DNA of 45,058 bases. Source: a virus. Made by a program: the position numbers and the translations under genes. Positions 1 to 18,668 of this stretch are shown piece by piece; within the stretch, counting starts at the first letter, position 1; every line of letters starts with the position of its first letter. The DNA lies in the IMG/VR virus record IMGVR_UViG_3300021964_000138, positions 1-45,058 of that record; one strand, given 5' to 3'. Below the pieces are notes generated by a model. The model had not been told where the DNA came from, made no database searches, and saw only the letters and a program-made list of their open reading frames with translations.

Positions 1-10
1 AAGTGAAGGT

Positions 11-3000
11 ATGTTTGATGCAGACTTTTTTAATCTTCCTACCTTAGATGATTTATCCAAAATAACTAAACCAATAGATGCTCCTCAAGTAAAAGAAAGA
101 AATATATTGCGTGGTTTAGGAGAATTTGGTAGTCAATTTGCACAAAGAGGTGCTGAAACTGCAACATTGGGATTAAGTAAATTTGCATTTGGGGAAGCTG
201 AAGAAGCTGAAACGTTAGGGGGTAAAATAGGTGCAACATTAGGTACAGTTGCTGGTTTTATGGCTCCTATGAGTTTATTTGGAAAAGCTGCTAAAGTTGG
301 AGTAAGAGCAACAAGCAAATTTAGTGGAACAAAAATGGTTGAAGAATTAAGACCATGGGCTAAAGAACATTTAAAAGGAAAAGTTAAACATGTAGGAAAA
401 CAAAGAGATTCTCTTGCTCCTTTAACAGCTGAACAAACAGAAAAAATGTTTTTTGACGATGTTGTAGAAAGAGGATTATTAAAGAAGATAGAAGAATTTG
501 GAGCAGATAGAACCTTCAAAACAGTAGTAGATAGAAATAAATTTAGTTCTGATACTATGTTATACGCTGGTAAATTTTTACAAAAAAGAGCTAGCGAACT
601 AGGATTAAAAATTGGAGATGATGTTATTGACCCTAAAACAGGAGAAATAACTAATACTGTTTTAAACAAATTTGGTAGTCAATTTGCAAAAGAATGGGAG
701 AGAGTTGGAGCAAGACCTATTACTGAGTTTCGTCAACAATTAATGAGAGCAGTTCCATTTGGAAACGAAGGAAAAGCATCAGCTAGATTAGCAACAGCTT
801 TAGAAGAAGGTATAGCATTTGCAGCAGTAGAAGGAGCTATGCACGTAACTAATGTTGCTGGAGGATTTCATCAACACGACGGAACAGAAGCTAGATTGGA
901 TGAAATGGATGACGTTTTAGGACAAGCGTTTGTATTAGGTAATTTATTAGGTGTCGGTAGATTTATTCCAGGAGGTGTACAGGGAGGAGCAATACCTAAC
1001 TTATTTACAAAAAGTGGAAGAGCTCAAGGTAAATTATTATTAGGTTATATGCCAAAAATGGCTGATAAATATAATCCTATTGGAACAAACACTGCGGCAA
1101 TAAATGATAGATTGAGTTTGTATAATATGTTTAGACATTACGACAAATTAAAAATGGGCGATGGTCAAATGCGTAAACAAATGAGAACAGCTTTTGAAGA
1201 CCATCCATTAAAAGGAGTATTGCCTAAAGAATTTAATTTTAGCAGAGCTAATATAAGAGAAAAATTACATTTTGGAACTGATGTTGAAAAAGATGCATTA
1301 GGACAAATGTTAAAAGATAATTTAAAAACTGTAGGAACTTACGCTTCAAAAGCATGGAGAAAAGATTTTCCAGCTCTTTTAAGAAAAGATATAGTTGGAA
1401 GTCAATTGCGTATGGGGTATGGTGGTATGGTTTTAGGTGGAGGTCCTCAAGTTTTATTTGATGAAAATATTATGTTTGAAGATAAAATGATAGGATTTTT
1501 AACTGGATATTTTTTATTTAAACATGGTAAAGAAATTAATTTTAAACAAGGTGAAATAAAAGCTGAAGATATGTACGGAAGCTGGAGCGGTTATAAAAAA
1601 GAATATGGTGAGCAAAGAGCTGAATTGCGTCAAATAGGAGAAATGTGGGAAGCTTTAGGCGTTGATTTTGGTCAAGGTCCTTGGGCTAGTATTATTGCAA
1701 GAAGCAGAAGAATGGATGAAACTATAGCTGATAGAGCAGAAGTAAACGCAGCTTTAACATCAACAGAATCAATTCTTAATGTTATTAATCCAATAACAAA
1801 AGATAGAGGTATGAAAGTTCAACAAACAAAAGCTGAATCTGAAAAAATTACAAGAGATAAAGACTATCAAATGACTAATGAAATTCATCAAAACGTTAAA
1901 AAACATTTTGAAAATGAAGGATACATAGAAAGTTCTAAAAAAGAAATTATGGAACTTTCAGAAATGAGTTATAAACAATATACAGATACAATAAAAAATT
2001 ATAGAGAAATGGGTTGGGAGCGAGACCTTGACATACAAATGTCAGTTATGCATACTAAAGTAGAAAGTTATAGCAATACAGGTATAAGCCAAGTCCCTAA
2101 AATTACAGAAATATCTGAATTATTAAAAGATAAAGATGGTAACAGTTATGCAAAAAGTATTTCAAAAGAAAAAGATGGAGCAAATTTATTAGACCCAGAT
2201 GTACAAGGAATATATCAAATACAACAAGTTCCTAGAATTAGAAATAGAGGAAACCTTACTTTAGAACAATCAGATGCTATAGAATGGTATAATAGACACG
2301 TAGAACATACTAGTCTAATGACACAAAGTTTGCGAGGTGGGGCAAAAGTAGAACTTAAAGGCGAAGTAAAATTAAAAGAAGATGGTACTGGTTTAAATAG
2401 ATTTGTTAAAGCAGTACAAGACATGAAAGAATCTTTTGAATTAGATTATCATAAAAACTTAGAAGTAGAAGCTGATAGACAAATTTTGTATAACAATTCT
2501 TTATTTAGATTTAATGCTGAAAATTTCAATTATGTATTAGAAGCAAATAGATTTAAAAAATTGTTTAAAACACTTTCAAGCGAAAGCACTATAAAAAATA
2601 AAAGAGAGCAACAAGTGTTAGAGTCTTTAAAAGCTTTATATGAAGTAGATAACGCTAATGTATATCATTCAAGCTTAAAAGAATTTAAAGATGCTGATTA
2701 TAATCAATTAAATAAAGGTGAAAAAGCATTTTTTAAAAATATGTTACCTTTAATATCAAGACTTGGAAACACAACTGAAATCTCACAAATCAGAAAAGAT
2801 AAATTATCATCTATTGACAAAGCAGAGGTTAAAAAATTAAAAGAAATATTTGAATCTGAAGGATTTAATTTAATTAGTTCTCCTAAAGAAATAGGTGCAT
2901 TTTTCAAATCAGATATGACAGATTTATTATTAAGAGAAGATATAAGTATGTTTCCTATGCCAGACGGAGCAGGTGGGACTAGAGTTAGCACTATTAATGA

Positions 3001-6000
3001 TAGAGCAATCATATCTAGAATATTTGCTAGTCCTTTAGTAAAAAATAGAGAAAGTAGAATGCTTCGTGAAACATTTAATGTATTTGATACCGTAGATATG
3101 AAAACTTTTGGTACTTGGAAAGATTTTACAAGTAGCGATAAATTCCAAAAATTGCCTTTAATAGAAAAGAAAAACATGGAATCGTTTAAAGAAGCTTTAG
3201 ATTCACAAGGAATAAATTTTAATCAATTAAATGCTTTAAATAAATTTTTAGAACCATATATGCTACAAGATGTAAAAGGTGTTCGTGCTGGATTTTTTAG
3301 AAAATCACAAGAAATTGTAGAATTGCCTCCAGAAAAATATGTTGAATTATTACAAACATTAAGATATTTAAAAGACCAACATGTAACTACAGTAGAATAT
3401 CCTTTATTTATAAAAGATTTGCAACAAATTGCTAAATCAGAAAAACATGAATATAAATCTATTGCTGGAGAAATCAATAAAATGATTAACAAGGCATTGC
3501 CTAAACAACAATTGCATATATATACTTTATTAAAAAATCATAAAATGTTAAATGAGCAAAATATGTTAGGCTATAAAAGAAATATGAAAATAGAAGACCC
3601 ACAAACTTCTATGGAAAATAGTTTTAATGCTTTTAAAGAAGATTTTGGAAGTAGAACACATGTAGAAAACAAAGATTTTGATGCTCTTGTTAAAGAAAAA
3701 TTTGAAGACGGACAATTTATGTCAGAAATATTTGACAATCCTATTAGAACTCCAGACAATTTATTTGATAAATATCAATTTCCTGTAAATGGTAAATTTG
3801 CAACTAAAGATAATATTGTAGATACACGTGGAGAACAATTAAAAAGCGTATTTTATTCTGAATACAAAGGAAAAGATTTATACAATTTTGGTAAAGATTT
3901 AAAAAGAGAAATTTTAGAAAACAATGAAAATGTAAACGTAGAACATTTAGATGTTGAAGTTACTACTATGATGAAATCTGTTAATAAAGCAGAAAGAGTT
4001 ATGCAAATAGATATAGATGCAAACAGTAGACCTAGCAATATGAGTGAAACAACTGTAGCTAGTAATAAATTTTATAAAACTTTAAAAAGAGTTATAGGCG
4101 ATGATATAATAATTATTAACGAAAACTTTATACCATTAAGCAAACAAAAATATGCTGATACTAATAGTATGGAACATATTAAAAATTTAAATGAATCATT
4201 AGGAGCTGAAAATAATTTACTTGTAAACGGAGAAAAGATTGCTAAAAGAAGAAATAATCAATCTATGGAACAATTAAAATTAGAAGAAAAAAATAATAAT
4301 CCTAATGCATATATTGATAGTATGCCTATAGGAACTTTTGTAAAATTTCCAAACGCTTCTGGGGGTGCTTTTGTAAAAGAAACACAATATTCTTCAATAG
4401 CTAGACAATATGCAAAAAAATTTCCTAATGCAGATTTAACAAAATTAAATGTGTTAAAAGACAAAGATGGTAATTATTATTATAAAGACAATAGAGCGCA
4501 AAGTCAAAATTTAGAACCAATTAATCAAATGGTAGTAGATTTAGTATATTCTGATTTTATGAGCGAAGGTCAATTTAAATCAATAACACAATCTACAGAT
4601 AAAGCATTAAACAAAAATTTAAAATATTTTGTATTATTTAAAAACGACAATGAATTTACACCTACTAAAAGATTTAGAAACGATGCATCTAGATTGTTAC
4701 AAGAGAGTACTGCAGATTTTGGTATGCGTAAAAACCAATTGTTAGACGGATTAAGTTTTGATGAAACTAATTCTAAAGTTTTTGTCATAAGAGATGAAGT
4801 TGCTCCAGGACAAGGGTATAAAGGAGGCAATATACCAGAAATATTTTCACAAAAAGCAAGATTCGATAGAAGATTGCATAAAGAAAATCCTGATTTATTT
4901 GTATTGACAAACACAATGGGTCAACCAATAAGAACAGCTGATGTGCAAATGATTAGTAGAGCAGATGCACAAGCTTTAGGAAAAGAAAAAAAATGGGAAA
5001 TAATTAAAGAAAATTATGAAAGCACAGATTTTGTAGACAAATCTATGTTTGATGGTGTTACATTTGAACACCCTAGTGTACACATGGCAAAAGCTTACAT
5101 AAATGGCAAAAGTCCAGAATCTATAGATTTAGTTCAAGGTAATAAATGGATAGGTAAAAGATATACAGACAAAGGAGAATTAGAATTTGTTAAAAGTTAT
5201 GGTATTAAAATGGAATATTTTGACAATATTTTTGGTAAAACATTATCAGATGGAACACGTATAGCTCAAATTGAAACTGTTTCTGGAAATAAAACTATAG
5301 GTCGTCAAAGTGATAGATTGAGTCAAAATATAATAGAGATAACCAATATGAAAGATTTAGAATTTTTACCAGCTGATAAAGGGATTCCTTTTAAATTTGA
5401 AGAATATCCATTGTTATATACGTCTGAAAGTAAAGATTATATTAGAAAAAGTCCTGATAATATGAAATATTTTCAAGACAGAGATGCAATGCAAGCAGAT
5501 TACTTAAAAGATGTTCAACCTGGAATAAGTAAAGCTTTAGATAAAATAAATGATATAGGGTTAGATAGTCCGTATAGAGAATCAGCAAGAGCTTGGTATG
5601 CAGCTGAAATAATGAAAAATTATTTTACAAGAGGAGAAGGTGTAGATTTAGATACTAAACAAACAGGATTAAACTTAACATTAGCTAAATATGGAATAGA
5701 CCCTTCATTTAATATGATGGGTGTAAATGATATGTTGCATAGGTCTTATGTAAACGGAGAAATATATAAATATAAAAACGAAGGAACTAAAACTTCTGTT
5801 GCTCCAGAATTGCCAGGAATGAATTTAAAACCTATGATAGGAAGCCCTAAAGAAGGAATATGGCAATACCCTGAAGCTTTACCTTCTATTTTAGACGCAA
5901 ATGTAACTGTTAAATCAAAAGAAGGAGAAAGCAATGCAATACTTATTAGGTCTGAAAAAACAAAAGATTCTGCACCTGAACAAGCAATAGTTTTATCTGA

Positions 6001-8743
6001 TATTGTAAAAGAAAATCCTGTTGAATTAAACAAAATATTAAAAGATTTACCAACTCAACAAAAAGCTACTTTGCAAAAATTGATAGAAATATCTAAAGCT
6101 GAAATGAATGCTGGTAAGTATGTTAAAGAATTAGCAAAACTTGGAGACAATGGCGTATCATTTCAATTGTTAAAAGAATTTAGAAGAGACCCTAATCAAG
6201 CTGGTTCTGCTAGAATGTTATTTGCCGTCAAAGATTTTAATAAAGACAATTCTCACATTATATCAAGTGTAGAAGGAGCAAGAAGAGCAGAATATGATTT
6301 TGATGGAGATACTATTACTTCTATGTCTAATTTTACTAAAAATGGATTAAAAGAATTAGTAGAATTGCAAACATCAGTATTAGATGCACCAAAAGTAAAT
6401 GAACTTGCAAATGCTATGTCTTATGACGGATTAACTTGGAATTTTGCTGGACTTGTTAAAAGAGGAGAATTAGAAAATAAAGCACAAAATTTTAAAGCGA
6501 TATTTATGCAAGCTCCACAACTTATGCAAGAAATAAGAATGATAGGAAATAATAATGTTATTTTAAGAAATCATGGATACACAGGAGCAGCTATACAAAT
6601 ACAACCTAATGTTTTTCTAGCAGCCAAAGGAGGTACAGGATTTAAAAGCGCTGACGCAATAGCATTAAATAGAGAATTAAAACAATTAGGACAAGCCTCA
6701 TTAGATACAGGAGGACAAGGATATAGAAAAGATATATTTACTACTTCGGAAAATTTATTAGAAAGATTATTTTTAACTGGAGATGCTCCTCTTTTTGATG
6801 TCGTAACTGTAGATTGGAAGACTAATGAATTAAGACCTGTTGCCGATTCTAGGCTTGGAAATAGAGAATTGTATTTGTTCCATACATTGCTAAGACCTTT
6901 AAGAAGTTTATTAACAGCTGAAAAAAATGATTTTAGTAGCGGTAAACAAGAATCTTCTGGTCCTTACAGCATTACAAAAGCAATAGATGGTTATAACAAA
7001 AGAATGAAATGGTTAGAAAAAGATGTGTTTGATGTTCCTAAAGACCATCCATTATATAGTTCTTTAAAAGAATACGAAAAAAGATTAAAAGATACTGGAA
7101 GAAAACAAGAAATATTTACTGGTTTTGGAACTAACGCACATTTAAGTGGAGTATTAACAAATCCTGAAAATTATAGTCCAAGAAACAGAGCTTTAATGGA
7201 ACAATATGATATGTATAATCGCAAAATAGATTATACTAGACAAGGTGGTCAAAATGTAAATGAATTTTATCCACAATACGAAAGTATAATTGCTACAGAA
7301 TCTAAAGCATATAGTGAATCTTTAAAAGGAATGGAGTTAACCGAAAAAAGTATTATGCAACTTTTAAAAGAAGCTTCCTATAATCAGAAAAAATTAAGAG
7401 AAGCTCAAGATGAATTAGCTAGTTATATAACCACTAATAAAGGCGATATACAATTAGGTGTTAATAATAAAGACAATGTAACTTTAAAAAATATAGAAAG
7501 AACACAAGTTTATAGATTGGAAAAAGAAATTAGAAGATTAGAAAATTCTATTAAAGCAAACGAAGAACAAGCAAATCAATATTATGGTTCAAAAAATGTA
7601 TTAGAAAAAAGAGTTAAACTATTAGAAGATTATGTTAGAAACTATCAATTGCCTAATGAAATTAAAAATAGAGCAAAAAAGAATGAAAAATTTGATAGAA
7701 AAGAACAAAACGCATGGGTAAAACAACAAGTTAAAAAAGGTAGAAAAGTTACTACTCCTAAAAATGATACTCAATTTATAGTTAATCAATCTAATAGAAT
7801 GTTTGCTACAGTAATGCATGGATATAGTCAACAAAAATTAGGATTAAATACTTTTGATAGTATGAGATTTGATAAAGAAGCTAGTCAAATTAAATCTTAT
7901 TATCGTAAAAATTCTAAAAATTTAAAAGACCAAACTGGTGAATATAATGTTAATCAAAGAAATTTGTTAGAACTTGATACTTTTGATAGAATAGATAATT
8001 ATTTAGAAAATAGAACACCTATGGAACAAATCCATTTACTTACAAAATTAATGGAACCAGAAAGCAATATCATGGAATTGCAAATATTTCAAGGAGAATT
8101 GTATCCTACTATCGTAGAACCAGGTTATCATTCTAGACATATGATGCTTTTAAGATATATGAACACTAGACTCGCAGAAAGAAATCCTTTCTTATCAGAA
8201 TTTATGTTATCTAATTACGCCAAAGCGTTTAACGAATCTGTAGATGTGTTTGCTGGAACTGCGACAAATAATAGATTTAGTAAAGCTATGGGTCAAGAAT
8301 TTTATGATGCAAAACAAGCTGAGATGTACACAGTAGATATAAATCCAGTAAGACACCACGCAGCTGAATTTTTTAGAAATTATGCACCACATAGCACTTC
8401 TGAAGTCAACAAATTAAGTAGATTAAGTCAATATGAAGCTATAATGACTTTATACGGAGGAAAAATGTTTTCTGATGTAGTTAATAATAATAAAATTTTG
8501 AACTCTCCTATAGGTAAAGTAGATTCTAATGGTAATTGGCTAAAACCAGGAGCAAGAGATGAAAATATACAAGCTCAAATTATTAGCCCAGAAAGGAATT
8601 TAATATTTGATGAAGCTATGCCTTCAAGTGTAGATTTACCATCAGGATTTACTGGTAAACAAAATGGTTGGGGTGGAGGAAAAAAACACTACGATAATTT
8701 AATTAGTGAAGCTGTAAAAAAATGTGTAGGTGAGGTAAAATAA
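11..8743 (+). CDS. Giant virion protein, candidate two-barrel DNA-dependent RNA polymerase (at least 2910 aa)
   Basis: The largest gene in the window. Residues 2096-2100 read DFDGD, preceded by a Tyr and followed by Thr-Ile. This is the metal-binding motif of double-psi-barrel RNA polymerases (NADFDGD in bacterial beta', DxDGD in QDE-1-type enzymes, DxDxD in crAss-like virion polymerases). About 360 residues upstream there is an FDG (1680-1682) and then YGIK (Lys1733), resembling the DG...GxKG segment of the partner barrel; the order of the two is as in that family. The N-terminal third has Gly/Ala-rich hydrophobic stretches (about 65-100, 255-330, 420-470) like phage ejection proteins, and a coiled coil lies near 2480-2560. 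It is coupled to the next gene by a TAATG overlap. No stop precedes the ATG within the window (AGT GAA GGT is open), so the true start may lie upstream. The polymerase role is inferred from motifs and is not proven. Confidence 0.72.
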   Translation: MFDADFFNLPTLDDLSKITKPIDAPQVKERNILRGLGEFGSQFAQRGAETATLGLSKFAFGEAEEAETLGGKIGATLGTVAGFMAPMSLFGKAAKVGVRATSKFSGTKMVEELRPWAKEHLKGKVKHVGKQRDSLAPLTAEQTEKMFFDDVVERGLLKKIEEFGADRTFKTVVDRNKFSSDTMLYAGKFLQKRASELGLKIGDDVIDPKTGEITNTVLNKFGSQFAKEWERVGARPITEFRQQLMRAVPFGNEGKASARLATALEEGIAFAAVEGAMHVTNVAGGFHQHDGTEARLDEMDDVLGQAFVLGNLLGVGRFIPGGVQGGAIPNLFTKSGRAQGKLLLGYMPKMADKYNPIGTNTAAINDRLSLYNMFRHYDKLKMGDGQMRKQMRTAFEDHPLKGVLPKEFNFSRANIREKLHFGTDVEKDALGQMLKDNLKTVGTYASKAWRKDFPALLRKDIVGSQLRMGYGGMVLGGGPQVLFDENIMFEDKMIGFLTGYFLFKHGKEINFKQGEIKAEDMYGSWSGYKKEYGEQRAELRQIGEMWEALGVDFGQGPWASIIARSRRMDETIADRAEVNAALTSTESILNVINPITKDRGMKVQQTKAESEKITRDKDYQMTNEIHQNVKKHFENEGYIESSKKEIMELSEMSYKQYTDTIKNYREMGWERDLDIQMSVMHTKVESYSNTGISQVPKITEISELLKDKDGNSYAKSISKEKDGANLLDPDVQGIYQIQQVPRIRNRGNLTLEQSDAIEWYNRHVEHTSLMTQSLRGGAKVELKGEVKLKEDGTGLNRFVKAVQDMKESFELDYHKNLEVEADRQILYNNSLFRFNAENFNYVLEANRFKKLFKTLSSESTIKNKREQQVLESLKALYEVDNANVYHSSLKEFKDADYNQLNKGEKAFFKNMLPLISRLGNTTEISQIRKDKLSSIDKAEVKKLKEIFESEGFNLISSPKEIGAFFKSDMTDLLLREDISMFPMPDGAGGTRVSTINDRAIISRIFASPLVKNRESRMLRETFNVFDTVDMKTFGTWKDFTSSDKFQKLPLIEKKNMESFKEALDSQGINFNQLNALNKFLEPYMLQDVKGVRAGFFRKSQEIVELPPEKYVELLQTLRYLKDQHVTTVEYPLFIKDLQQIAKSEKHEYKSIAGEINKMINKALPKQQLHIYTLLKNHKMLNEQNMLGYKRNMKIEDPQTSMENSFNAFKEDFGSRTHVENKDFDALVKEKFEDGQFMSEIFDNPIRTPDNLFDKYQFPVNGKFATKDNIVDTRGEQLKSVFYSEYKGKDLYNFGKDLKREILENNENVNVEHLDVEVTTMMKSVNKAERVMQIDIDANSRPSNMSETTVASNKFYKTLKRVIGDDIIIINENFIPLSKQKYADTNSMEHIKNLNESLGAENNLLVNGEKIAKRRNNQSMEQLKLEEKNNNPNAYIDSMPIGTFVKFPNASGGAFVKETQYSSIARQYAKKFPNADLTKLNVLKDKDGNYYYKDNRAQSQNLEPINQMVVDLVYSDFMSEGQFKSITQSTDKALNKNLKYFVLFKNDNEFTPTKRFRNDASRLLQESTADFGMRKNQLLDGLSFDETNSKVFVIRDEVAPGQGYKGGNIPEIFSQKARFDRRLHKENPDLFVLTNTMGQPIRTADVQMISRADAQALGKEKKWEIIKENYESTDFVDKSMFDGVTFEHPSVHMAKAYINGKSPESIDLVQGNKWIGKRYTDKGELEFVKSYGIKMEYFDNIFGKTLSDGTRIAQIETVSGNKTIGRQSDRLSQNIIEITNMKDLEFLPADKGIPFKFEEYPLLYTSESKDYIRKSPDNMKYFQDRDAMQADYLKDVQPGISKALDKINDIGLDSPYRESARAWYAAEIMKNYFTRGEGVDLDTKQTGLNLTLAKYGIDPSFNMMGVNDMLHRSYVNGEIYKYKNEGTKTSVAPELPGMNLKPMIGSPKEGIWQYPEALPSILDANVTVKSKEGESNAILIRSEKTKDSAPEQAIVLSDIVKENPVELNKILKDLPTQQKATLQKLIEISKAEMNAGKYVKELAKLGDNGVSFQLLKEFRRDPNQAGSARMLFAVKDFNKDNSHIISSVEGARRAEYDFDGDTITSMSNFTKNGLKELVELQTSVLDAPKVNELANAMSYDGLTWNFAGLVKRGELENKAQNFKAIFMQAPQLMQEIRMIGNNNVILRNHGYTGAAIQIQPNVFLAAKGGTGFKSADAIALNRELKQLGQASLDTGGQGYRKDIFTTSENLLERLFLTGDAPLFDVVTVDWKTNELRPVADSRLGNRELYLFHTLLRPLRSLLTAEKNDFSSGKQESSGPYSITKAIDGYNKRMKWLEKDVFDVPKDHPLYSSLKEYEKRLKDTGRKQEIFTGFGTNAHLSGVLTNPENYSPRNRALMEQYDMYNRKIDYTRQGGQNVNEFYPQYESIIATESKAYSESLKGMELTEKSIMQLLKEASYNQKKLREAQDELASYITTNKGDIQLGVNNKDNVTLKNIERTQVYRLEKEIRRLENSIKANEEQANQYYGSKNVLEKRVKLLEDYVRNYQLPNEIKNRAKKNEKFDRKEQNAWVKQQVKKGRKVTTPKNDTQFIVNQSNRMFATVMHGYSQQKLGLNTFDSMRFDKEASQIKSYYRKNSKNLKDQTGEYNVNQRNLLELDTFDRIDNYLENRTPMEQIHLLTKLMEPESNIMELQIFQGELYPTIVEPGYHSRHMMLLRYMNTRLAERNPFLSEFMLSNYAKAFNESVDVFAGTATNNRFSKAMGQEFYDAKQAEMYTVDINPVRHHAAEFFRNYAPHSTSEVNKLSRLSQYEAIMTLYGGKMFSDVVNNNKILNSPIGKVDSNGNWLKPGARDENIQAQIISPERNLIFDEAMPSSVDLPSGFTGKQNGWGGGKKHYDNLISEAVKKCVGEVK

Positions 8744-11631
8744 TGAATATTGTACAAAAATGTGTAAGTTTATTTTTTCCAAATAAAAAAATAGAAGCTG
8801 ATACAAAATCTAGAGCAGATGCATATCAAGCTATTGTAGATACATATTGGAAAAAGACATCTCCTGTTCATCAATTAGACCCTGTATTACAATCTTCAAG
8901 ATTTAATGGATTAGTGAGCAAAGTAACTAATGGTCAATTAGAATTGCCAAAAAATAAAATACCTACAGTAGAACAATTAAAAGATTTAAAAAGGTTAGTT
9001 GAAAAAGATTTAAAACTTATGGTAAAAAAACCTAATATTTTTCAAAGACATTTTTATATTGGAGAATCTTTTGTAAAAAACCATAAAGAAATAGCTGACC
9101 AATTTAATATTATGTTAAAAAGCAATGAAGTAAAAGCAGTATCTACACAAAAATATGCAAATGCAAATAAAATGGTATTTGAACAAATGAGGATTGCAGC
9201 TGAAGGAGAAGGATTTAAACTTACTACAATGCTTAGAGGAGGAAGGTCAAAAACTTTAGACAAATTGATGAAAATGCAACAGGAGTATTTAAATATATTA
9301 TATGATAAAACAGGTAAATATACTTATCAAGGAGAATCTGGTCCTAGAGCAGCAGAAGCATATAGATTAAATAGTGGAGGTAAATATAAAGATTCTTTAG
9401 AATATTTTGCAAGTCAAGGTGAAGGTAAGATATATCAAGATTTTATGACTTATGTTACAATGAGTGAACCAAGATGGAATCAAGTTTCTAAAGATGTTAA
9501 TGCAAATCCTCATGTAATTAAAGCAGCTAGAATATGGAGAGATATTATTTTAAAAGATACAAATGAAGCAATGATAAACTCTTTTAGTAGATTTAAAAAC
9601 ATATTAAGTAATTTATCTCAAACAGATAAAAACACTAATGAATATAAAGATTTATATAATTTTGTAGAAAATCAATTATTAGAATTTAAAAGTATAAGCA
9701 AAACTGACAAAGGATTATTTCCTGTTATGACATTAGATGTAATGCCTACATTAGAAGCTAATTTACATAAAATAATTAGTCCTAAAAAAGGCTCTCAAGA
9801 TTTTGTTGAAGGAGCAAATAGTATTGTAGCTTTAAGAGATATTATAAAAACAAATATTTATAAAAATAATAAATTATCTAATAGGGCTCAACAATCAGAA
9901 GGTGCGAATCAAATGGCATTTAATTATTTGGGATTACTTGATTCTTATGCTAGAAACACAGTAAAGTTAGAACATAGTTTAACTAACACAGGTTCTATGT
10001 TAGAAGTTATGAAGTTTGTTACAGATACCAAAAATAGAGGTAAGACTCTTAATGATGGTAAAACTACAGCTTTTGATGAAGTAAATGTTGGATTGCAGGA
10101 TTATATGCAAAATATTTATATGTATCAAATGGGAATAAAAGACTTAAATCCAATTACTGGAGAGCCTACAATATATTCTAAAATGGCTAGAATGGCTACT
10201 TCTGCGCAATTCTTTAGTAAGTTAGGATATAACATTAGGTCTGCAGCTAGAAACTCAGCACAAGCGTTATTTCATTATGTGCATTTTGGAGTAGCTGGTG
10301 TAAACAGATTAAATAAAGAATTAGCAAAAGACAAAAATTTACAAGCTAGAGTTAATATAGGTTTGGAAAAAAGTGGTTTAAAAATGGAATTTGGTGAAAC
10401 CGCAAATATTAGAGATGTGTATGGACAAATGATTCCAGAAAGAATTTTCGACGAATCAACTGGTACATATAGAACTAAAACAGATTTTAAAGCAATAGAC
10501 AAGCTTGATAAACTAATAGATAATGCTTCTACTAAGTCTGGTGTATTTATGAGAAAAATAGAAAACGAATTAAATCGTGGCTGGGCATACAAGTTAGGAT
10601 ATGTTAACGCTTGGAAAACAGATAAAGCATTAGAGCCTAAACTAAGAAAACAGTATGAATGGAATAATTTTAGAGATAAAAATAATAGGCTGGACATAGA
10701 CGCAATTAAGAAAGCTCAAAATACAGAAATTAAATCTGATATTTTAGGAAAAACTACAGAATATGAAGCTAATTTTGAGTTGTATAGAAGAAGAAGAGCT
10801 GAAAATGCTGCTAGAGATACCGTAAGATTAATACATTTTGATTATTCAGGTATTAATAAAGCTCCTATATTAAGAACTAAATCAGGTGCAGTTTTAGGAC
10901 AATTTCAACATTATGGAATGAGTTTGTTTGTATTGCAAAAAAAATGGATACAAGAAGGATTTGGAGACATTCGTAAAGGTGATTTATTTGGAGAAAAAGC
11001 AAATCGAATGCATAGATTGTTTTTTATGAACACTATGGTTCATGGAATATTTAGTCCATTATTTAACACAGATTTAGGTAATCTTATACAAAATGATACA
11101 ATAGATAGAGCTAACAAATGGTGGACATTGTGGGATAGCGATGACGACGAAGAAAGAGCAGCAGCTTTCTTTAACAAAGGACCTGTAGCTGGTAGCTTAG
11201 GACCTACAGTAAGTACAGTATTAGATGTAAAAAGCCTTGTAGATGAAACATTTGATACTGGAGAAATGTTTGCATGGTATGACGATTTTGATGATGATGG
11301 TATTATGTCTTATATGACTGGTAGAGAGTATGCAGCTGAATTAGATGACGATACAACAATGTTTGGTAAACTTTTAAATTTATTTAATATACAATTAGGA
11401 AGACTATATAACAATACTGGACCTAAATCATTGCAATCTAATAATTTCTTTGGAACATTCGCAACAAGCGAATTAGGGTTGTATAGCACTAAAGAAGTTA
11501 AAGAGATGAGAAAAAATGTACCAGCATTAAATGCAAAGAATTGGTTTGACAATCCTAAGCCTGCAAAACAAGTAAACTTTGACGCTCAAGTGTTACAAAG
11601 TCTGCAAGCCTTAGAATCTGAAGCTTCTTAA
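8743..11631 (+). CDS. Large internal virion (ejection-type) protein, 962 aa
   Basis: The start ATG overlaps the stop of the giant protein (TAATG), so the two are translationally coupled and probably used together. The protein is mostly helical and polar, with long Lys/Glu-rich stretches. An acidic run (DSDDDEE) lies near the C-terminal third, followed by a Gly-Pro-rich hydrophobic segment (FNKGPVAGSLGPTVSTVLDV) of a kind seen in large phage proteins injected with DNA. I see no catalytic motif. By position and size it is probably an internal core or ejection protein that accompanies the candidate virion polymerase; this is inference from context. Its stop codon overlaps the stop of the opposing gene at 11628. 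Confidence 0.65.
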   Translation: MNIVQKCVSLFFPNKKIEADTKSRADAYQAIVDTYWKKTSPVHQLDPVLQSSRFNGLVSKVTNGQLELPKNKIPTVEQLKDLKRLVEKDLKLMVKKPNIFQRHFYIGESFVKNHKEIADQFNIMLKSNEVKAVSTQKYANANKMVFEQMRIAAEGEGFKLTTMLRGGRSKTLDKLMKMQQEYLNILYDKTGKYTYQGESGPRAAEAYRLNSGGKYKDSLEYFASQGEGKIYQDFMTYVTMSEPRWNQVSKDVNANPHVIKAARIWRDIILKDTNEAMINSFSRFKNILSNLSQTDKNTNEYKDLYNFVENQLLEFKSISKTDKGLFPVMTLDVMPTLEANLHKIISPKKGSQDFVEGANSIVALRDIIKTNIYKNNKLSNRAQQSEGANQMAFNYLGLLDSYARNTVKLEHSLTNTGSMLEVMKFVTDTKNRGKTLNDGKTTAFDEVNVGLQDYMQNIYMYQMGIKDLNPITGEPTIYSKMARMATSAQFFSKLGYNIRSAARNSAQALFHYVHFGVAGVNRLNKELAKDKNLQARVNIGLEKSGLKMEFGETANIRDVYGQMIPERIFDESTGTYRTKTDFKAIDKLDKLIDNASTKSGVFMRKIENELNRGWAYKLGYVNAWKTDKALEPKLRKQYEWNNFRDKNNRLDIDAIKKAQNTEIKSDILGKTTEYEANFELYRRRRAENAARDTVRLIHFDYSGINKAPILRTKSGAVLGQFQHYGMSLFVLQKKWIQEGFGDIRKGDLFGEKANRMHRLFFMNTMVHGIFSPLFNTDLGNLIQNDTIDRANKWWTLWDSDDDEERAAAFFNKGPVAGSLGPTVSTVLDVKSLVDETFDTGEMFAWYDDFDDDGIMSYMTGREYAAELDDDTTMFGKLLNLFNIQLGRLYNNTGPKSLQSNNFFGTFATSELGLYSTKEVKEMRKNVPALNAKNWFDNPKPAKQVNFDAQVLQSLQALESEAS

Positions 11632-11858
11632 TCTATTGTGTTTATTAAGTTTTCAATACCTTGTTGAGATAATCTATAACCTTCTGTTTCTAATTGATTA
11701 ATCGTAGGTATGTTTGCTGCGTCGTAAGTATCCATTATAGTTTGTAGTTCTGTTATTTCTTTTTGCAATTTGATTCTAATTTCATATACGTGCATTTTGT
11801 AATTTTTATTATTAAGTTCTACTTTGTATTTTAATAAGTCTTTATATTCTTTTTTCAT
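11628..11858 (-). CDS. Small hypothetical helical protein, 76 aa
   Basis: Last gene of the leftward unit. Highly charged, beginning MKKEYKDLLKYK, with heptad-like Leu/Ile spacing over residues 20-45, so a short coiled coil is likely. It overlaps the RuvC-like gene by 4 bases (ATGA) and so is in the same transcript. Its stop overlaps the stop of the convergent 962-aa gene. No family recognised; the position suggests an accessory of the replication group. Confidence 0.7.
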   Translation of the reverse strand: MKKEYKDLLKYKVELNNKNYKMHVYEIRIKLQKEITELQTIMDTYDAANIPTINQLETEGYRLSQQGIENLINTID

Positions 11859-12298
11859 TTTTCCTCCGTTAATGCGTACATTCCAATACAGATTGCGTCT
11901 GCATTCTTTAATGTAACTCTATGATTATTACCTGCCCAGTCTTGAGCCACTTTCTTAAAATATCTTTTTCGTTCTGTGTAGTCTTTTGGTATATCTCCTC
12001 CAATGAAATGTTGCCATACTTTAGGCAATACATCTACTCTCTGCAACTTTAATGACGCTATAATACCTAACCAAACGCCATAATTTTCTCCAAAAGTAAA
12101 AGCACCTCTTTCGTAAGGTCTAGCCCAAACTCTTTCTATGTATACTTTAGGTTTTTTACGACCTATAGCATTTCTAATGACTTTAACCATATCTTTTGGT
12201 TCCCTTGAAGTAGGACAATTGGTAGTGAATTGGAGGTTCGTTGAGTCAAAGAAAGCAACTGCCCCACTCCATCCAGGGTCTATAGTTAAAATTTTCAT
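11855..12298 (-). CDS. RuvC-like Holliday junction resolvase
   Basis: 147 aa with an RNase H-fold layout typical of RuvC/phage resolvases. The first strand carries DPGWSGA (Asp7), a second acidic residue sits in YIERVW (Glu55), and a late NADA motif gives Asp134. Together these form a plausible metal-binding catalytic set for cutting four-way DNA junctions. The length is close to that of short phage RuvC proteins. It lies directly downstream of the DnaB helicase with a 4-base overlap, which suits resolution of recombination or replication intermediates before packaging. Substrate choice cannot be read from sequence. Confidence 0.85.
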   Translation of the reverse strand: MKILTIDPGWSGAVAFFDSTNLQFTTNCPTSREPKDMVKVIRNAIGRKKPKVYIERVWARPYERGAFTFGENYGVWLGIIASLKLQRVDVLPKVWQHFIGGDIPKDYTERKRYFKKVAQDWAGNNHRVTLKNADAICIGMYALTEEK

Positions 12299-13647
12299 TT
12301 ATTCATCATTCTAATAGCTTCATTTCGGTCAAAGTACACGCTACATTTATCTCCATTAAAGCCCATATTATATGAACCTAATTGCCCATATCTAGCTTTT
12401 TGACATATTACTTCAATTTCATACTTATCGTTGTCTCTATTATCTACCGCATAAGGATAGTATACAAAGAACGCCGCTTCAGCTGTTTGTTCAATCACAC
12501 CGCTTTCCGCAAAGTCTGATAACTTAGGTCTAGGGTCTAACCTTCTTTCAATTTCTCTATTTAATTGCGATACTAATATAGCACTACACTTAATTTTCTT
12601 ACAAATCCACTTATAGTCAAGCATTATATCTTCTATTTCAAACCTTCTATCTTTATTGCCTCCATCTGTACGAATAAGTTGGATATAATCATCAAGGACT
12701 ACATCTGGTTTTTCTTTACTTATCTCTTTCATAGCGTCTGCAAGCGTTTTACAATCATCTAACATAATCAAGTTCTTGTATTTTTCACCAAGTTCTTCTT
12801 TCTTTAGATTGATTTCGGTTATTTCTTTACTAATATCAGCAGCTTTTCTAATACGTTCATAACTAAATTGTTGAAATTCCATTACTAAAATCTTTTTCAT
12901 CATCTCAACATTAGTCATCTCACGATTAAATAACATAACTTTCTTACCTTGTTCAAGTAATCGTTTGACAATATTAATAATCATAGTAGTTTTACCATGT
13001 CCTGGTCTACCACCTACAACTGTAATCTCACCTCTAGTCATACCACCCGCTGCATTGTCTAGCTGTTCAATACCAAAAGGTATTAAGTTTGTGCCTTCTT
13101 TTAATGCTTCTACTGTATTAGTCAATATGTCTTTAGTTTCAACTACTTTACTTGGAGCAATATCTTTTAAGTCTTGTATAATCTTTTCATGTTGATGTAA
13201 GACTTCTACAATATCATCCGTATTTTGTAAAGTTAAGTTATATAATATTTGGGAACTTTTTACCGCTTTACGTTGTATAAACTTATACCAAATGTTCTTA
13301 GCGTAAGTTTCAGCGTTCGCAGTAGTAGGAACTCCATTAGCCAATCCAGTTAAATAATAAGTAGTTAAATTATTGTCTTTTACATTATCCTTTAAATCTC
13401 CAAATACTGTAATAGTATCTATTGGCACATTGTTCTTATACAGCCTATGAAACGATTTCCACAACTCTTGATGCTTTGTAGTATAAAAACATTTAGGTTC
13501 TTTGATAATCGCTTTAGCTTTTTCAAAGATTTCATCACCTTTTAGTAAAATACTACCTAATAATGCTATTTCTGCTTCTTCATTCTTAGGCATAGGTTCC
13601 AGTCCGTTTGTCTGCTTAAGTTCTTTTTTGTCTGTAAACTCTTTCAT
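12295..13647 (-). CDS. dnaB: Replicative DNA helicase, DnaB family
   Basis: 450 aa with the two-domain DnaB plan. The N-terminal helical domain (about 19-165) begins with the usual EAEIALLGSILL. The RecA-like ATPase domain has Walker A GGRPGHGKTT (212-221), an NREM segment (241-244), Walker B VVLDDY (about 317-321), ILVSQLNREIERR (motif H3, about 357-369) and LSDFAESGVIEQTAE (376-390), the last being diagnostic of DnaB. It unwinds DNA at the phage fork as a hexameric ring. The start overlaps the methylase stop (TAATG) with GGAGG just upstream. No primase or helicase loader is recognisable in the window. Confidence 0.95.
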   Translation of the reverse strand: MKEFTDKKELKQTNGLEPMPKNEEAEIALLGSILLKGDEIFEKAKAIIKEPKCFYTTKHQELWKSFHRLYKNNVPIDTITVFGDLKDNVKDNNLTTYYLTGLANGVPTTANAETYAKNIWYKFIQRKAVKSSQILYNLTLQNTDDIVEVLHQHEKIIQDLKDIAPSKVVETKDILTNTVEALKEGTNLIPFGIEQLDNAAGGMTRGEITVVGGRPGHGKTTMIINIVKRLLEQGKKVMLFNREMTNVEMMKKILVMEFQQFSYERIRKAADISKEITEINLKKEELGEKYKNLIMLDDCKTLADAMKEISKEKPDVVLDDYIQLIRTDGGNKDRRFEIEDIMLDYKWICKKIKCSAILVSQLNREIERRLDPRPKLSDFAESGVIEQTAEAAFFVYYPYAVDNRDNDKYEIEVICQKARYGQLGSYNMGFNGDKCSVYFDRNEAIRMMNK

Positions 13648-14477
13648 TACACCTCCGATTCTGTAAATAAACTAATTTGTTTTTCTTTTGGAATATAGTT
13701 TGTAATAACTAATTCATTTTTCTTTTCATTGCTATGTAATTGACCAGCATATTTAATTGGTATTTCATCTATAAAATAAAACCTATACATTTGCCATATT
13801 TCAGGTCTATTATCATAAGACACCATAAATTTTCCCCCGCCTGCATCAATTTCATCGCAAACTTCTTTTAAACTTAAATGGTCATCTTCTGTAAATGAAT
13901 GTATATAGTAATCATTTCTATCTGTAGCTGCAAAGTAAGGAGGGTCTAAATACCACATGTCTCCTTCTTTTGGCTTATACTTTTCAATTAACTTTCTAAA
14001 ATCCATGTTTTCAATAAACACATCATTTAACTTTTTTCTACTTGGTTCTAAATCAGCCAGAATATCGTCATTCCATTTAGCAGCGTTACTAATTGGTAAG
14101 AAAGGGCTTTTGTTAAACGCCGTTTTTAATACAAAAAAGTACATTGCTGCTCTTTTATAATCTGGTATGTCTACTTTTGATTTACTATGTATTAGTTTTC
14201 TATAGTCTTCGTGAAGAGTTCTAGACAATAGTATATGTTTACAATAATGTCTAAACTTGTCGAAATCCTCCGCTACTGAAATATACAAATTTATTATGTC
14301 ATTATGCAAATCATTTAATATATTTATTTTTGCTTTGTTTTTTCTAAAGAACATACTTCCTCCACCAAGAAATACTTCAATATATCGTTCATGAGGATGA
14401 AGCTTAGGAACAAGTTTCCTTGATAAGCTATATTTGCCTCCATAGTAAGGAAATATAGTTGGACAATCATTTTTCAT
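13647..14477 (-). CDS. dam: DNA adenine methylase, D12 class (Dam-like)
   Basis: 276 aa. PYYGGK at 10-15 and FLGGGS at 36-41 form the S-adenosylmethionine pocket, an ND pair follows at 55-56, and DPPY at 178-181 is the catalytic motif for N6-adenine methylation. The motif order (AdoMet site first, DPPY later) is that of Dam/DpnM-type enzymes. No partner restriction enzyme is present, so it is an orphan methylase, most likely protecting phage DNA or marking it during replication. The target sequence cannot be deduced. It overlaps both neighbours by 1-4 bases in the replication operon. Confidence 0.93.
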   Translation of the reverse strand: MKNDCPTIFPYYGGKYSLSRKLVPKLHPHERYIEVFLGGGSMFFRKNKAKINILNDLHNDIINLYISVAEDFDKFRHYCKHILLSRTLHEDYRKLIHSKSKVDIPDYKRAAMYFFVLKTAFNKSPFLPISNAAKWNDDILADLEPSRKKLNDVFIENMDFRKLIEKYKPKEGDMWYLDPPYFAATDRNDYYIHSFTEDDHLSLKEVCDEIDAGGGKFMVSYDNRPEIWQMYRFYFIDEIPIKYAGQLHSNEKKNELVITNYIPKEKQISLFTESEV

Positions 14478-14827
14478 TTAGTTTTTCCTACATAATTTAG
14501 TTTTTCCCACATATCTCTATATGATGAATTGCTTTCTACACCTACTGGTAAACAAGAAGTACATAATCCCTCTTTTTTGAACTGTTTTCTACGTTTTTCA
14601 TCCATACCGATATGTAAAGCACCAGGACCATTACCTTCATCATCCATTCCTACAAAGAATGCATCGCCTTTGTCTGTAACAAATACTAATCCAGTCCCTT
14701 CTTCTGGATAGTCTTCATCCCATTCTTGCCACCATACATTTTCAATGGTTCTACCCATAAGTAATTTCTGTGCTGAATCATACCACATTTTAGTTCTATC
14801 GTATTTTTCTTTTAATGTTTCTCTCAT
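14474..14827 (-). CDS. Hypothetical protein, 117 aa
   Basis: Starts with MRETLKEKYDRTKMWYDSAQ after a strong AGGAGG, so the start is well supported. The middle is acidic and Trp-rich (VWWQEWDEDYPEEG) and is followed by a beta-rich stretch with TDKGDAFFVGMDDEGNG. A lone CTSC lies near residue 88. I do not recognise a family. It overlaps the methylase gene by 4 bases and follows the radical SAM gene closely, so it is co-transcribed with them. Confidence 0.75.
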   Translation of the reverse strand: MRETLKEKYDRTKMWYDSAQKLLMGRTIENVWWQEWDEDYPEEGTGLVFVTDKGDAFFVGMDDEGNGPGALHIGMDEKRRKQFKKEGLCTSCLPVGVESNSSYRDMWEKLNYVGKTK

Positions 14828-14836
14828 ATTTTCCTC

Positions 14837-15700
14837 CTAAAATATGTATCTTATTTCTTGCCACGGAACGTGTCGTTTCATAGCATTACGAAATGCGTTT
14901 ATATAATCTCTTTTAATATTGTATTTATATCTAATATTACGACCTCCATATTGACTTGTTTTAGCTTCTTGTAACTCATTTCTCCATAATAAGTTTTCGC
15001 CTTCTACTCCCTCTGTAACATTAAACTTATGCATATCTTCGTTGTGAGTTAAAAAAATGCATTCTGCTTTTACTTTATGCTTAAACAAGTTATGTACGTG
15101 CGTATCTACTAAGTCAAATAACTCCGCATATGCTTTTTTAGAATTTTCATATACTATTATTGGTGAGTAATTTACGTGTACATCATAACCAGCTTCTATA
15201 AAATCATTAATAGCTTTTATTCTATCTATAATTTTACTTGTTCCTGGCTCTAGTTTATCAGACAACTCTTGTGGCATTAGACTAAATCTAATACGAACTT
15301 TTTGTAAAGGGTTGAAAGATAATAAATCATTATTTACATATTTTGTTGCCGCAGTACCCATAATCTGTTCGTTGTATTTAAATATACCAAACAACTTTTT
15401 CCAATCGTGATACTTTGCGTGCAATACATAATCTTCATTGCAACTAAAATCATATGTATAATATGTTTCGTGTGTTTGATTTGGTGTTTTCGGGTAAGGT
15501 AGTGTAATACTGTGTTGTATAATAGCTTCTATTATATCATCTATATTATCAGCAATTGTTACACCAGACTTTACGTGTCTTCTCATGTAACAATAATTAC
15601 ATTTAAATAAACAACCGTATCCAAAACTAGGTGTAATAAAATCACTACTTCTACCAGACTCTCTAATTAACATAGATTTACGATTGACTCTTTTTATCAT
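14837..15700 (-). CDS. Radical SAM protein, spore photoproduct lyase-like
   Basis: 287 aa. The N-terminus has C30-x3-C34-x2-C37 (CLFKCNYC), the site that binds the 4Fe-4S cluster and S-adenosylmethionine in radical SAM enzymes, preceded by FGYGC. The residues after it (YCYMRRH) and the body, with IRFSLMPQELSDKLEPGTS and INDFIEAGYDVHVNYSPI, resemble spore photoproduct lyase relatives, which reverse a thymine photodimer in spore-formers. In a marine phage it may repair or modify DNA bases; the actual reaction is not known. It ends 9 bases before the 117-aa gene and overlaps the upstream small gene by 4. Confidence 0.85.
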   Translation of the reverse strand: MIKRVNRKSMLIRESGRSSDFITPSFGYGCLFKCNYCYMRRHVKSGVTIADNIDDIIEAIIQHSITLPYPKTPNQTHETYYTYDFSCNEDYVLHAKYHDWKKLFGIFKYNEQIMGTAATKYVNNDLLSFNPLQKVRIRFSLMPQELSDKLEPGTSKIIDRIKAINDFIEAGYDVHVNYSPIIVYENSKKAYAELFDLVDTHVHNLFKHKVKAECIFLTHNEDMHKFNVTEGVEGENLLWRNELQEAKTSQYGGRNIRYKYNIKRDYINAFRNAMKRHVPWQEIRYIF

Positions 15701-15915
15701 TCAAATATCTCCTTCGCTTGTTCATATAAATCGCTAGTCATATTATCCATAGCATAATCTCTCTGTTTATCAGACCAACCATCTAAATCACCCTGTGTAT
15801 TAGCCGCACATTGTAACATATGCTGTTCGAATTGATTTCTCATTTCATCATAGTCATATATTCTAATTCCGTTTTCATCTGTTCTATAATTTAGTTTAAT
15901 ACTTATAAATTCCAT
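15697..15915 (-). CDS. Hypothetical protein, 72 aa
   Basis: Acidic small protein (MEFISIKLNYRTDENGIRIYD...) with a Trp-Ser-Asp segment GDLDGWSDKQRDYAMDNM in the middle and a helical C-terminus. Its stop overlaps the start of the radical SAM gene, so translation is coupled and it may assist that enzyme. Only a weak purine-rich site precedes the ATG, which lies 1 base after the stop of the 53-aa gene; it is probably read by re-initiation. No family recognised. Confidence 0.7.
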   Translation of the reverse strand: MEFISIKLNYRTDENGIRIYDYDEMRNQFEQHMLQCAANTQGDLDGWSDKQRDYAMDNMTSDLYEQAKEIFE

Positions 15916-15916
15916 T

Positions 15917-16078
15917 TTATTTTCTCTTTCTTCTTATTGAGCTTATATTGTTATAATACATATACTCAAATCCAAGCTCATTTAATTTATCTATTAGATT
16001 TGCTATTTTTTCTTGCAAATCAAATGCTTTTTCAGAATTATACATTTTTTCTAATTTTTTTCCTGTTGGATTACTCAT
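15917..16078 (-). CDS. Small hypothetical helical protein, 53 aa
   Basis: A short reading frame filling the gap between two longer genes. ATG at 16078 is preceded by GAAGGAG, overlaps the upstream gene by 8 bases, and its TAA is 1 base before the next ATG. It begins MSNPTGKKLEKMYNSEKAF, has a helical middle (LQEKIANLIDKLNELGF) and a basic tail (SIRRKRK). The tight packing and ribosome site support it as real. Function unknown. Confidence 0.7.
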   Translation of the reverse strand: MSNPTGKKLEKMYNSEKAFDLQEKIANLIDKLNELGFEYMYYNNISSIRRKRK

Positions 16079-16310
16079 CTCTATGCTCCTTCAATTCATC
16101 ATTAACTTTTTTTATGTTTTGGTAAAGTTTTTGATATTTATTAGTATGGAAGATTATATTATTTTTATTCAAGTGTCCTTCGTGTTTAATACTCCAAGTC
16201 TTATCTTCAATTGGTTGCACAGGAACATCTACTCCGTCTTCAAAATCTTCTGCTTCTCTTAACTTGTAGTTATCCATTTTTTCTATTTCTAATTTCTTGT
16301 AATATCCCAT
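16071..16310 (-). CDS. Hypothetical protein, 79 aa
   Basis: Charged small protein (MGYYKKLEIEKMDNYKLREAEDF...) with a Pro/Asp central stretch (DGVDVPVQPIEDKTW) and a Lys-rich helical C-terminus. The ATG overlaps the stop of the upstream zinc-binding gene by 1 base. No motif or family recognised. It is held in the same run of overlapping small genes. Confidence 0.7.
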   Translation of the reverse strand: MGYYKKLEIEKMDNYKLREAEDFEDGVDVPVQPIEDKTWSIKHEGHLNKNNIIFHTNKYQKLYQNIKKVNDELKEHRDE

Positions 16311-16573
16311 TACATTCTACTCCCACTTGTTATTTCATCATATTTATCTTTATTGCCTCCGCATTCTTCAGCAATTTTTTCTGTCCATTCAAAATATGTC
16401 ATCGGTGCTACTTCGTCATTGCAAATATTGCACCAACGTGGAGTATCATCTACACTTTCTGTGACTTCAAGCGTATTCATATTAACCCACGCTTTTTCGT
16501 CTACTTCTTCTGAACCGCAATAGTCGCATACCCACATATCATCCATATCTATTTTTGATTTTCTTTCACTCAT
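16310..16573 (-). CDS. Small zinc-ribbon-like protein, 87 aa
   Basis: Contains two CxxC pairs, CDYC (about 16-19) and CNIC (about 48-51), separated by about 28 residues. This spacing fits a zinc ribbon that could bind nucleic acid or a protein partner. The rest is acidic (EVDEKAWVNMNTLEVTESVDD). It overlaps the upstream gene by 8 bases and the downstream gene by 1. Zinc binding is inferred from the cysteines; the target is unknown. Confidence 0.75.
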   Translation of the reverse strand: MSERKSKIDMDDMWVCDYCGSEEVDEKAWVNMNTLEVTESVDDTPRWCNICNDEVAPMTYFEWTEKIAEECGGNKDKYDEITSGSRM

Positions 16574-16799
16574 TTATCTCTCCATCTAATATTCTATATT
16601 GGTTAATCCATTGATTTTCATATTTTTGTACTACTGGTACTGCACAAAATATCCACCAAGCTCTACCAAATCTTTTGTAGAATTCTTCACGTTCTGCAAT
16701 AGATTCTTCGCTCCAAACATCTATTGACTTAAAAGTTTTAAGTCTTTTTTTAAAATTTCTTTTATATTTTAAGGGATTATTATTTTCATCGTACGTCAT
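16566..16799 (-). CDS. Hypothetical basic protein, 77 aa
   Basis: Starts 26 bases downstream of the structured element at 16826-16954 and has a strong AGGAGG site 5 bases before the ATG. The N-terminus is Lys/Arg-rich (YKRNFKKRLKTFK), and the middle has an aromatic segment (GRAWWIFCAVPVV) that might contact membrane or a hydrophobic partner. No family recognised. It is the first gene after the structured leader and so the one most likely to be controlled by it. Confidence 0.72.
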   Translation of the reverse strand: MTYDENNNPLKYKRNFKKRLKTFKSIDVWSEESIAEREEFYKRFGRAWWIFCAVPVVQKYENQWINQYRILDGEINE

Positions 16800-16825
16800 T
16801 TTTCCTCCTTTTCTGTAGTTTTATC

Positions 16826-16954
16826 AGCAAGAGAATAGACTTTGTAGAGAGGGTCGTGCTACACTTCTATACGACTTCGGTTAACGTAGCCAGTCTCTAT
16901 CAAGTGGTCTATATCTCAGGGGCCTTATGCATTTTAGGAACCTACGCTCTTGCT
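16826..16954 (-). ncRNA. Structured RNA element (nested helices with interleaved core)
   Basis: Strand is taken from the surrounding genes. Helix 1 pairs 16826-16833 with 16947-16954 (AGCAAGAG/CTCTTGCT, perfect). Helix 2 pairs 16835-16840 with 16907-16912 (6 bp). Helix 3 pairs 16842-16850 with 16894-16903 (9 bp, one bulge). Inside it, 16853-16857 can pair with 16871-16875 and the adjacent 16858-16862 with 16886-16890; these two 5-bp stems interleave, so they form a pseudoknot or two mutually exclusive hairpins. Helix 1 uses the last codons of the DUF932 gene, and the element ends 26 bases before the next ATG, as for a cis-regulatory leader or a processed small RNA. No known class recognised. 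Confidence 0.55.
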
Positions 16955-17724
16955 AATCTTGTTATTGTTGGATAAATCTGATTCTCCATAATATGAATAG
17001 ATTCTCTATCTCTATGCGCAACGTGTGTTGCTACATAAGTACAAGCATTTAATAAATCCCAATATGTTTTCATATTATTATTTAAACAATATCTTGTAAA
17101 ATCTTCCATATATTGTTGTGGAATCAATTTAGCCATATCAACTAAATGTTTACCTCTTAACTTAGTTTGTGTTAGTCTTGGAAATTCTGTTTCAAACATT
17201 TGAACTAACATAGCAACTGTATCATTAATAGTACTATCTATTTGATTAATACTAGTATTACTATTTTTATGTACAGCTTTCTTTTTCGTTAAGACGTTAC
17301 CAATTGTCAATCCATTTAAGCATACAAGCCTAAATGCACCACCCATAACATTAACAGAAGTGCTACCATCGTAACTATTTGCTACTATTAATTGTGGATT
17401 TATTAAATCACCCTTTTCAACCTTAACTTTGGTTTTAGGAAAATTCCATTTCCAAATAGCTCTTTGACCATTTGAGAATGTTCTAGCTTCTGATAGTTCG
17501 GCACCAGAACCTTTTAATACTTTTTGAACTTTATCAACAACTGATTTGTTGTCAACTATTTTATATTCATCGGTCATACAAGACAATACATCTCCTGTAT
17601 CTTCTCTTATGATGAATTTATGACCTGTTCCATCAAGTGGTTTATCTTGTACAGATTTGTCAAGATATATTGCTGGAACTTCTTTAACTGGAAATAGAGT
17701 CTCCTCCATTGCTACTATAGACAT
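16942..17724 (-). CDS. DUF932 phage/plasmid-like protein, 260 aa
   Basis: Matches in length and sequence pattern the DUF932 family: LSCMTDEYKIVDNKSVVDKV near the N-terminus, then GQRAIWKWNF, NSYDGSTSVNVMGGAFRLVCLNG, and a helical C-terminal half. Such proteins are widespread in phages and plasmids, usually beside recombination genes; their biochemical role is unsettled. Start chosen at the first ATG, with GAGGAG about 10 bases upstream; a second ATG five codons later is also possible. It overlaps the upstream gene by 41 bases. Its last codons are part of the structured element that follows. Confidence 0.85.
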   Translation of the reverse strand: MSIVAMEETLFPVKEVPAIYLDKSVQDKPLDGTGHKFIIREDTGDVLSCMTDEYKIVDNKSVVDKVQKVLKGSGAELSEARTFSNGQRAIWKWNFPKTKVKVEKGDLINPQLIVANSYDGSTSVNVMGGAFRLVCLNGLTIGNVLTKKKAVHKNSNTSINQIDSTINDTVAMLVQMFETEFPRLTQTKLRGKHLVDMAKLIPQQYMEDFTRYCLNNNMKTYWDLLNACTYVATHVAHRDRESIHIMENQIYPTITRLARA

Positions 17725-18514: not shown

Positions 18515-18668
18515 TCTTTTTTTCCTTCGCCCATTCATTATGCACAATATCATCTATCATGTCTTTTTCGCTAGAACCAATTTCTAAATTATCTTTAATT
18601 TTTTGTATAATTTTATTCCAGACAACATTAACACGTAGCAATTCTTGTGCTTGTTTTAATTTATCCAA
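18489..18668 (-). CDS. Small hypothetical protein with TTG start, 59 aa
   Basis: Read from TTG at 18668, which sits 5 bases after AAAAGGAGG; the frame stays open to a GTG at 18722, but that codon has no ribosome site and lies inside the structured leader. The protein (LDKLKQAQELLRVNVV...) is helical and charged with an acidic centre (EIGSSEKDMIDD) and a basic end. Function unknown. It is the first gene downstream of the structured region at 18688-18935. Confidence 0.62.
   Translation of the reverse strand: MDKLKQAQELLRVNVVWNKIIQKIKDNLEIGSSEKDMIDDIVHNEWAKEKKNERSSNNN

Follow-up and report, generated by a model that had tools for sequence, protein, structure and literature searches.

A giant protein at the end of a phage late operon is probably a virion-carried two-barrel RNA polymerase

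Introduction

Jumbo phages, crAss-like phages and the P23-45 group are already reported to carry virion RNA polymerases of the two-barrel type. In crAss phages, RNA-polymerase-related proteins are present in virions (PMC10172136); gp66 of Cellulophaga phage phi14:2 (PDB 6VR4) is encoded at the end of the late operon, and its record cites virion mass spectrometry. In P23-45, the RNA polymerase is fused to the tape measure protein (PMC10770324), and the two-barrel core of gp96 (FRNP...VDFDGDT) occupies the N-terminal part of this 5,002-aa protein of a long-tailed phage, which is thought to be ejected. The giant N4 enzyme is expelled together with two ejection proteins; in N4 and DEV of the Schitoviridae, the enzyme is an ejected protein of ~3,000-3,500 aa that has a channel part at its N-terminus and the polymerase in its center, and two smaller ejection proteins are encoded along with it (PMC12633501). 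Finally, YonO of SPbeta is a single-chain two-barrel RNA polymerase of ~840 aa that is not fused to an ejection protein (PMC5467207).

We analyzed a 45,058-nucleotide stretch of viral DNA (IMG/VR record IMGVR_UViG_3300021964_000138, positions 1 to 45,058; hereafter the window), which encodes a giant protein that resembles each of these systems in part. As in gp66 and its Crassvirales relatives, the predicted core lies on a single chain with barrel B before barrel A and has R-x-P...DxDxD, K-P and F-x-S-x2-K-x-G motifs. The gene also stands at the end of the late operon and encodes a giant protein, which in the case of gp66 is a virion protein. Unlike phi14:2, with its genome of ~100 kb, this phage has a genome of ~57 kb and different partner proteins, and its likeness to gp66 is detectable at the profile level only. 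A two-barrel core in a giant protein presumed to be ejected is shared with gp96, but the core lies here in the central to C-terminal part, and no tape measure protein was recognized in this phage. The overall layout, including small neighboring genes, resembles that of the N4/DEV enzyme, so that the protein would pair a layout like that of N4 with a catalytic core of the crAss type.

Results and Discussion

Position and motifs of the giant protein

The giant protein, P0001, is open at the left end of the window, and its missing 5' end was supplied by a public contig (L002) that is identical to the window over 18.7 kb. The full-length protein has 2,941 aa (L002 9917-18742); its gene starts ~84 bases before window position 2, outside the window, at an ATG 93 bases 5' of the one used in the original prediction. 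Residue numbers below follow that prediction, and full-length numbering is obtained by adding 31. The N-terminal half contains two hydrophobic Gly/Ala-rich segments, and the giant ORF overlaps the ORF of its 962-aa partner by one base. The original prediction took an FDG (residues 1680-1682), a YGIK (1730-1733) and a DFDGD (2096-2100) as signatures of a two-barrel RNA polymerase, and all three were found in the translation, at window positions 5048-5056, 5198-5209 and 6296-6310. The features are as follows; those inside the giant protein were placed with the family alignment described below.

2..8743, + strand: giant protein P0001, 2,913 codons in the window, left end open
4589..7441, + strand: predicted two-barrel RNA polymerase core
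5048..5056, + strand: FDG, start of presumed barrel B (DG, DS or NG in the family)
5144..5146, + strand: Lys1712, aligned with the K of the family K-P-I
5192..5194, + strand: Lys1728, aligned with the K of the family K-T
5207..5209, + strand: Lys1733, the lysine originally chosen, not conserved (Ser in L009)
5291..5293, + strand: Lys1761 in S-G-N-K, family S-x2-K, like crAss F-x-S-x2-K-x-G
6185..6193, + strand: R-D-P, the invariant R-x-P of the catalytic barrel
6290..6310, + strand: E-Y-D-F-D-G-D, predicted catalytic loop, with E and three D invariant in 11 proteins
6692..6706, + strand: Q-A-S-L-D, the invariant Q-x3-D, 3' of the catalytic loop
8743..11631, + strand: 962-aa partner protein of the GQFQHYG family, adjoining the giant protein in relatives that show both

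A DFDGD in one sequence proves little and is a weak clue, because a motif scan found EYDFDGD in many EF-Tu-like proteins. With a phage beta'-barrel profile, P0001 scored 10.6 bits, its relative L009 14.4 bits and the proven RNA polymerase gp96 13.2 bits, and some decoys reached 11-12 bits, similar to P0001. The giant protein had no informative match in Pfam, PHROGs, PDB sequences or 50,697 phage records. Scanning for YDFDGDT, E-x-DFDGD-T and DFDGDT[I/M] brought up L009 as a single close relative, together with numerous beta' proteins and two further loci (L034 and L040). A scan of genome contigs yielded EF-Tu and calcium-binding-like repeats in large number, and the giant protein had no relative among these results. 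The frequency of the motif on its own and the lack of database matches are what would be expected if the protein were an ordinary ejection protein and DFDGD a chance or unrelated acidic loop, for example one that binds calcium.

The two further loci (L034 1-8025 and L040 2-8524) encode giant proteins of uncultured phages, of at least 2,674 and at least 2,840 aa, whose C-terminal part is a polymerase-like core with R-S-P...EFDFDGDT; in both loci another gene comes next, which in L040 encodes 1,146 aa. A cultured relative of L034 was looked for and none was found. Additionally, many viral loci (e.g. L281 and L190) contain ORFs of 2,000-2,500 aa with a cellular beta'-like KRDPALHKHSVQAF...NADFDGDTM segment; these may be enzymes of uncultured phages in which beta and beta' are fused.

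Conservation in the family

L009 is 56% identical to the giant protein of the window and keeps the motif. More distant relatives were reached through the better conserved 962-aa partner by scanning for GQFQHYG, which revealed ~18 related contigs with homologous partner genes, several of them with a giant protein upstream. All nine upstream giant ORFs that covered the region had a DxDxD loop after R-x-P at the expected distance, in the form DHDGD, DFDID, DYDID, DYDVD, DYDFD or DYDYD.

The family alignment (A4) comprised 11 giant proteins including that of the window, to which the relatives are 13-56% identical; all except L009 share only 13-28% identity with it. R-x-P, E-x-D-x-D-x-D and Q-x3-D are invariant in all 11 proteins, with R-x-P ~37 residues before the Asp triad, the Glu two residues before it and Q-x3-D ~130 residues after it. 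The DxDxD metal loop expected of barrel A is therefore present throughout the family, whereas its fourth position varies (G, I, V, F or Y), as in the DFDID of gp66. In the upstream half, where the alignment contains fewer sequences, the 'D-G' position of barrel B is kept as DG, DS or NG, and three recurring lysines, in K-P-I, K-T/S and S-x2-K, are mostly kept, so that a barrel B with conserved lysines is recognizable by sequence. The barrel-B lysine had been assigned to Lys1733; this residue is Ser in L009 and K, R, Y or H in the others, and the recurring lysines correspond instead to Lys1712, Lys1728 and Lys1761.

Profile comparison with known RNA polymerases

We compared the giant family by hhalign with a gp66 set consisting of phi14:2 gp66 and seven relatives; the figures are pairwise statistics and not those of database searches. 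The two families aligned on the catalytic barrel with a score of 68.5 (E 8e-7, probability 92%). After removal of gappy columns, the score was 63.8, whereas 60 shuffles of the giant-family columns, with E-x-DxDxD left intact, averaged 21.0 and never exceeded 28.6. The barrel-B half upstream of the catalytic barrel, taken alone, scored 37.2 against gp66 (shuffle maximum 17.9) in a colinear alignment of 266 columns, in which FDG, K-P-I and S-x2-K fell on their counterparts in gp66. Past the catalytic loop, the downstream half showed no significant match to gp66 (17.3; shuffle maximum 19.7), and the window protein and L009 without the distant relatives gave no gp66 match.

As a yardstick, known two-barrel enzymes matched gp66 less well (gp96, 28.7; YonO, 22.6). 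With the YonO family, phage beta' proteins and the L034/L040 group, too, the giant-family profile scored above its shuffles, and the similarity to gp66 (63.8) was higher than that to the other two-barrel sets (YonO family, 33.6, on the catalytic loop; phage beta' set, 34.1; gp96, 20.3). The remote similarity to gp66 and YonO that the original prediction had anticipated was thus borne out, most strongly for gp66. A supposed likeness of window residues to the S-A-G-Q-x-R region of YonO was discarded because L009 lacks those residues. The virion RNA polymerase of N4 has a T7-type right-hand fold. Neither Pfam nor PHROGs matched a T7-type single-subunit polymerase domain in P0001, and with a two-barrel core any likeness to N4 would be convergent.

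With the loop context conserved in 11 proteins and a significant gp66 match outside the motif that surpasses shuffled controls, a chance or unrelated acidic loop is hardly credible, and it is very likely that the giant protein is homologous to two-barrel RNA polymerases. The barrels might also be relics whose only remaining role in the ejection apparatus is structural or to grip DNA; the fast divergence of the family and the downstream half without a gp66 match would suit such a loss of the predicted polymerase activity. We consider this very unlikely, since the three Asp, the Glu, R-x-P and Q-x3-D are invariant at identities down to 13% and the three lysines are mostly kept. Catalytic activity of the giant protein is likely.

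Structure model

An AlphaFold model built from the 11 sequences of A4 was of low confidence (pLDDT 56, pTM 0.34), with many blocks at 70-88 around the catalytic barrel. In a Foldseek search of the PDB with this model, the first 34 matches were RNA polymerase largest subunits, or complexes entered under that chain, although the matches were weak (E 0.02, probability ~0.2). A model built from two sequences, which failed although it covered almost the same stretch, had no polymerase among its PDB matches. The A4 model contained a strand (555-558), a helix (560-566), a loop (570-574) and a strand (575-579), which, together with the aligned R-x-P, is the strand-helix-loop-strand context expected around the loop in two-barrel RNA polymerases. 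QDE-1 was absent from the 50 best structure-search matches listed. Against a viral library, two unnamed proteins matched the model strongly (E 1.5e-9 and 2.3e-6).

Gene neighborhood and cassette exchange

The late operon runs from terminase, portal, capsid and fibers to genes of 172, 166 and 422 aa, and it ends after these with the giant protein and its partner. A coupling of the giant protein with the 962-aa protein had been proposed; the partner does adjoin it, but the block has at least five genes and not only two. Comparison of L002 7614 to window 11631 with a related phage (G007; L358-L360) revealed that the 172-, 166-, 422-, 2,941- and 962-aa genes were replaced together, whereas almost all other genes compared were 74-98% identical. 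Within the block, identity was 27% for the 166-aa protein, 25% for the giant protein and 30% for the 962-aa protein, and the 172- and 422-aa proteins had no match. Because they are replaced as a unit, the five genes behave as one exchangeable cassette, which supports an ejection module. As the polymerase-like protein sits in this ejection-like block, the phage probably brings its own enzyme for transcription into the cell along with the DNA.

The enzyme could instead be made late, remain unpackaged, and transcribe late genes or prime replication in the cell. The giant gene does belong to the late operon, a virion and a non-virion two-barrel enzyme occur side by side in P23-45, and no primase was recognized beside the DnaB-like helicase; nevertheless, this seems unlikely for a giant fusion whose closest relative, gp66, is a virion protein and which is exchanged as one block with small proteins that occupy the position of ejection proteins.

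The divergent early/late region is 79% kept between phages whose polymerases are only ~25% identical. This is a point against the injected enzyme if it reads a specific promoter there; a very different polymerase would have to recognize the same signals in this region or need none. A repeat search of 15.6-25.3 kb found no convincing repeated early promoter motif.

Proposed function

Taken together, family conservation, the controlled profile comparison and the gene neighborhood support the original view that a giant injected protein contains a two-barrel RNA polymerase on one chain, like the crAss virion enzyme, and a virion-carried, ejected RNA polymerase is, with good probability, what the giant protein is. 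The center (residues ~1560-2510 of 2,941, in full-length numbering) would form two double-psi barrels on one chain, in which the E-x-DFDGD loop of barrel A would hold the catalytic Mg2+ and the lysines of barrel B would touch the nucleotide or the RNA end. The N-terminal half and the neighboring small proteins may form a channel across the cell envelope. By analogy with the crAss, P23-45 and N4 enzymes, the protein would be made late with the tail genes, packaged in the head, and threaded out either before the DNA or together with it. Once refolded in the cell, it would transcribe the first genes on the entering DNA, before or beside the host RNA polymerase. Virion carriage and early transcription are probable on this analogy.

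The present locus adds a family in small (~57 kb) uncultured phages that, judged by the rest of their genes, are not related to crAss-like phages. Since almost the same genome can take up very different polymerases, these enzymes may start without a lineage-specific promoter, for instance on the entering DNA end. We tentatively suggest, as a possibility rather than an expectation, that giant two-barrel virion RNA polymerases and their channel proteins are, unless already covered by the 23 RNA polymerase families of PMC10770324, a previously unannotated family, an exchangeable ejection-and-transcription cassette of small non-crAss phages that may start in this way. The cassette exchange makes it testable how an ejected polymerase picks its start site.

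Other features of the genome

The right end of the window overlaps the far end of L002, and about 1.8 kb is estimated to lie outside the loci compared, so that the genome of this uncultured tailed phage is estimated at ~57 kb. A 50-kb region of phi14:2 containing terminase, portal, capsid and gp66 gave no blastp match to the window ORFs at 1e-4, and the best-ranked terminase matches were to Zobellviridae and others at ~24%. Judged by its structural genes, the phage is outside Crassvirales, with no terminase, portal or capsid of the crass type found in these comparisons. The giant proteins of Zobellviridae (CRP-4, P12053L and MEP401) were considered as homologues and set aside, as no homology was detectable.

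The early region (11600-25000, - strand) encodes a DnaB-like helicase, SSB, a Sak-type annealing protein, a Cas4-like exonuclease, a Holliday junction resolvase and a DNA methyltransferase. Among its scanned proteins, neither a primase nor a DNA polymerase was recognized, and PHROGs and Pfam revealed no other polymerase among the proteins scanned. A radical-SAM protein at 14837-15700 (- strand) matches spore photoproduct lyase (Pfam SPL, E 1.5e-20) and is perhaps a UV-damage repair enzyme. At 40060-45057 (+ strand), the end of a long fiber-like ORF diverges (91% plus a gap) from an otherwise near-identical contig, which suggests fiber variation between near-identical phages.
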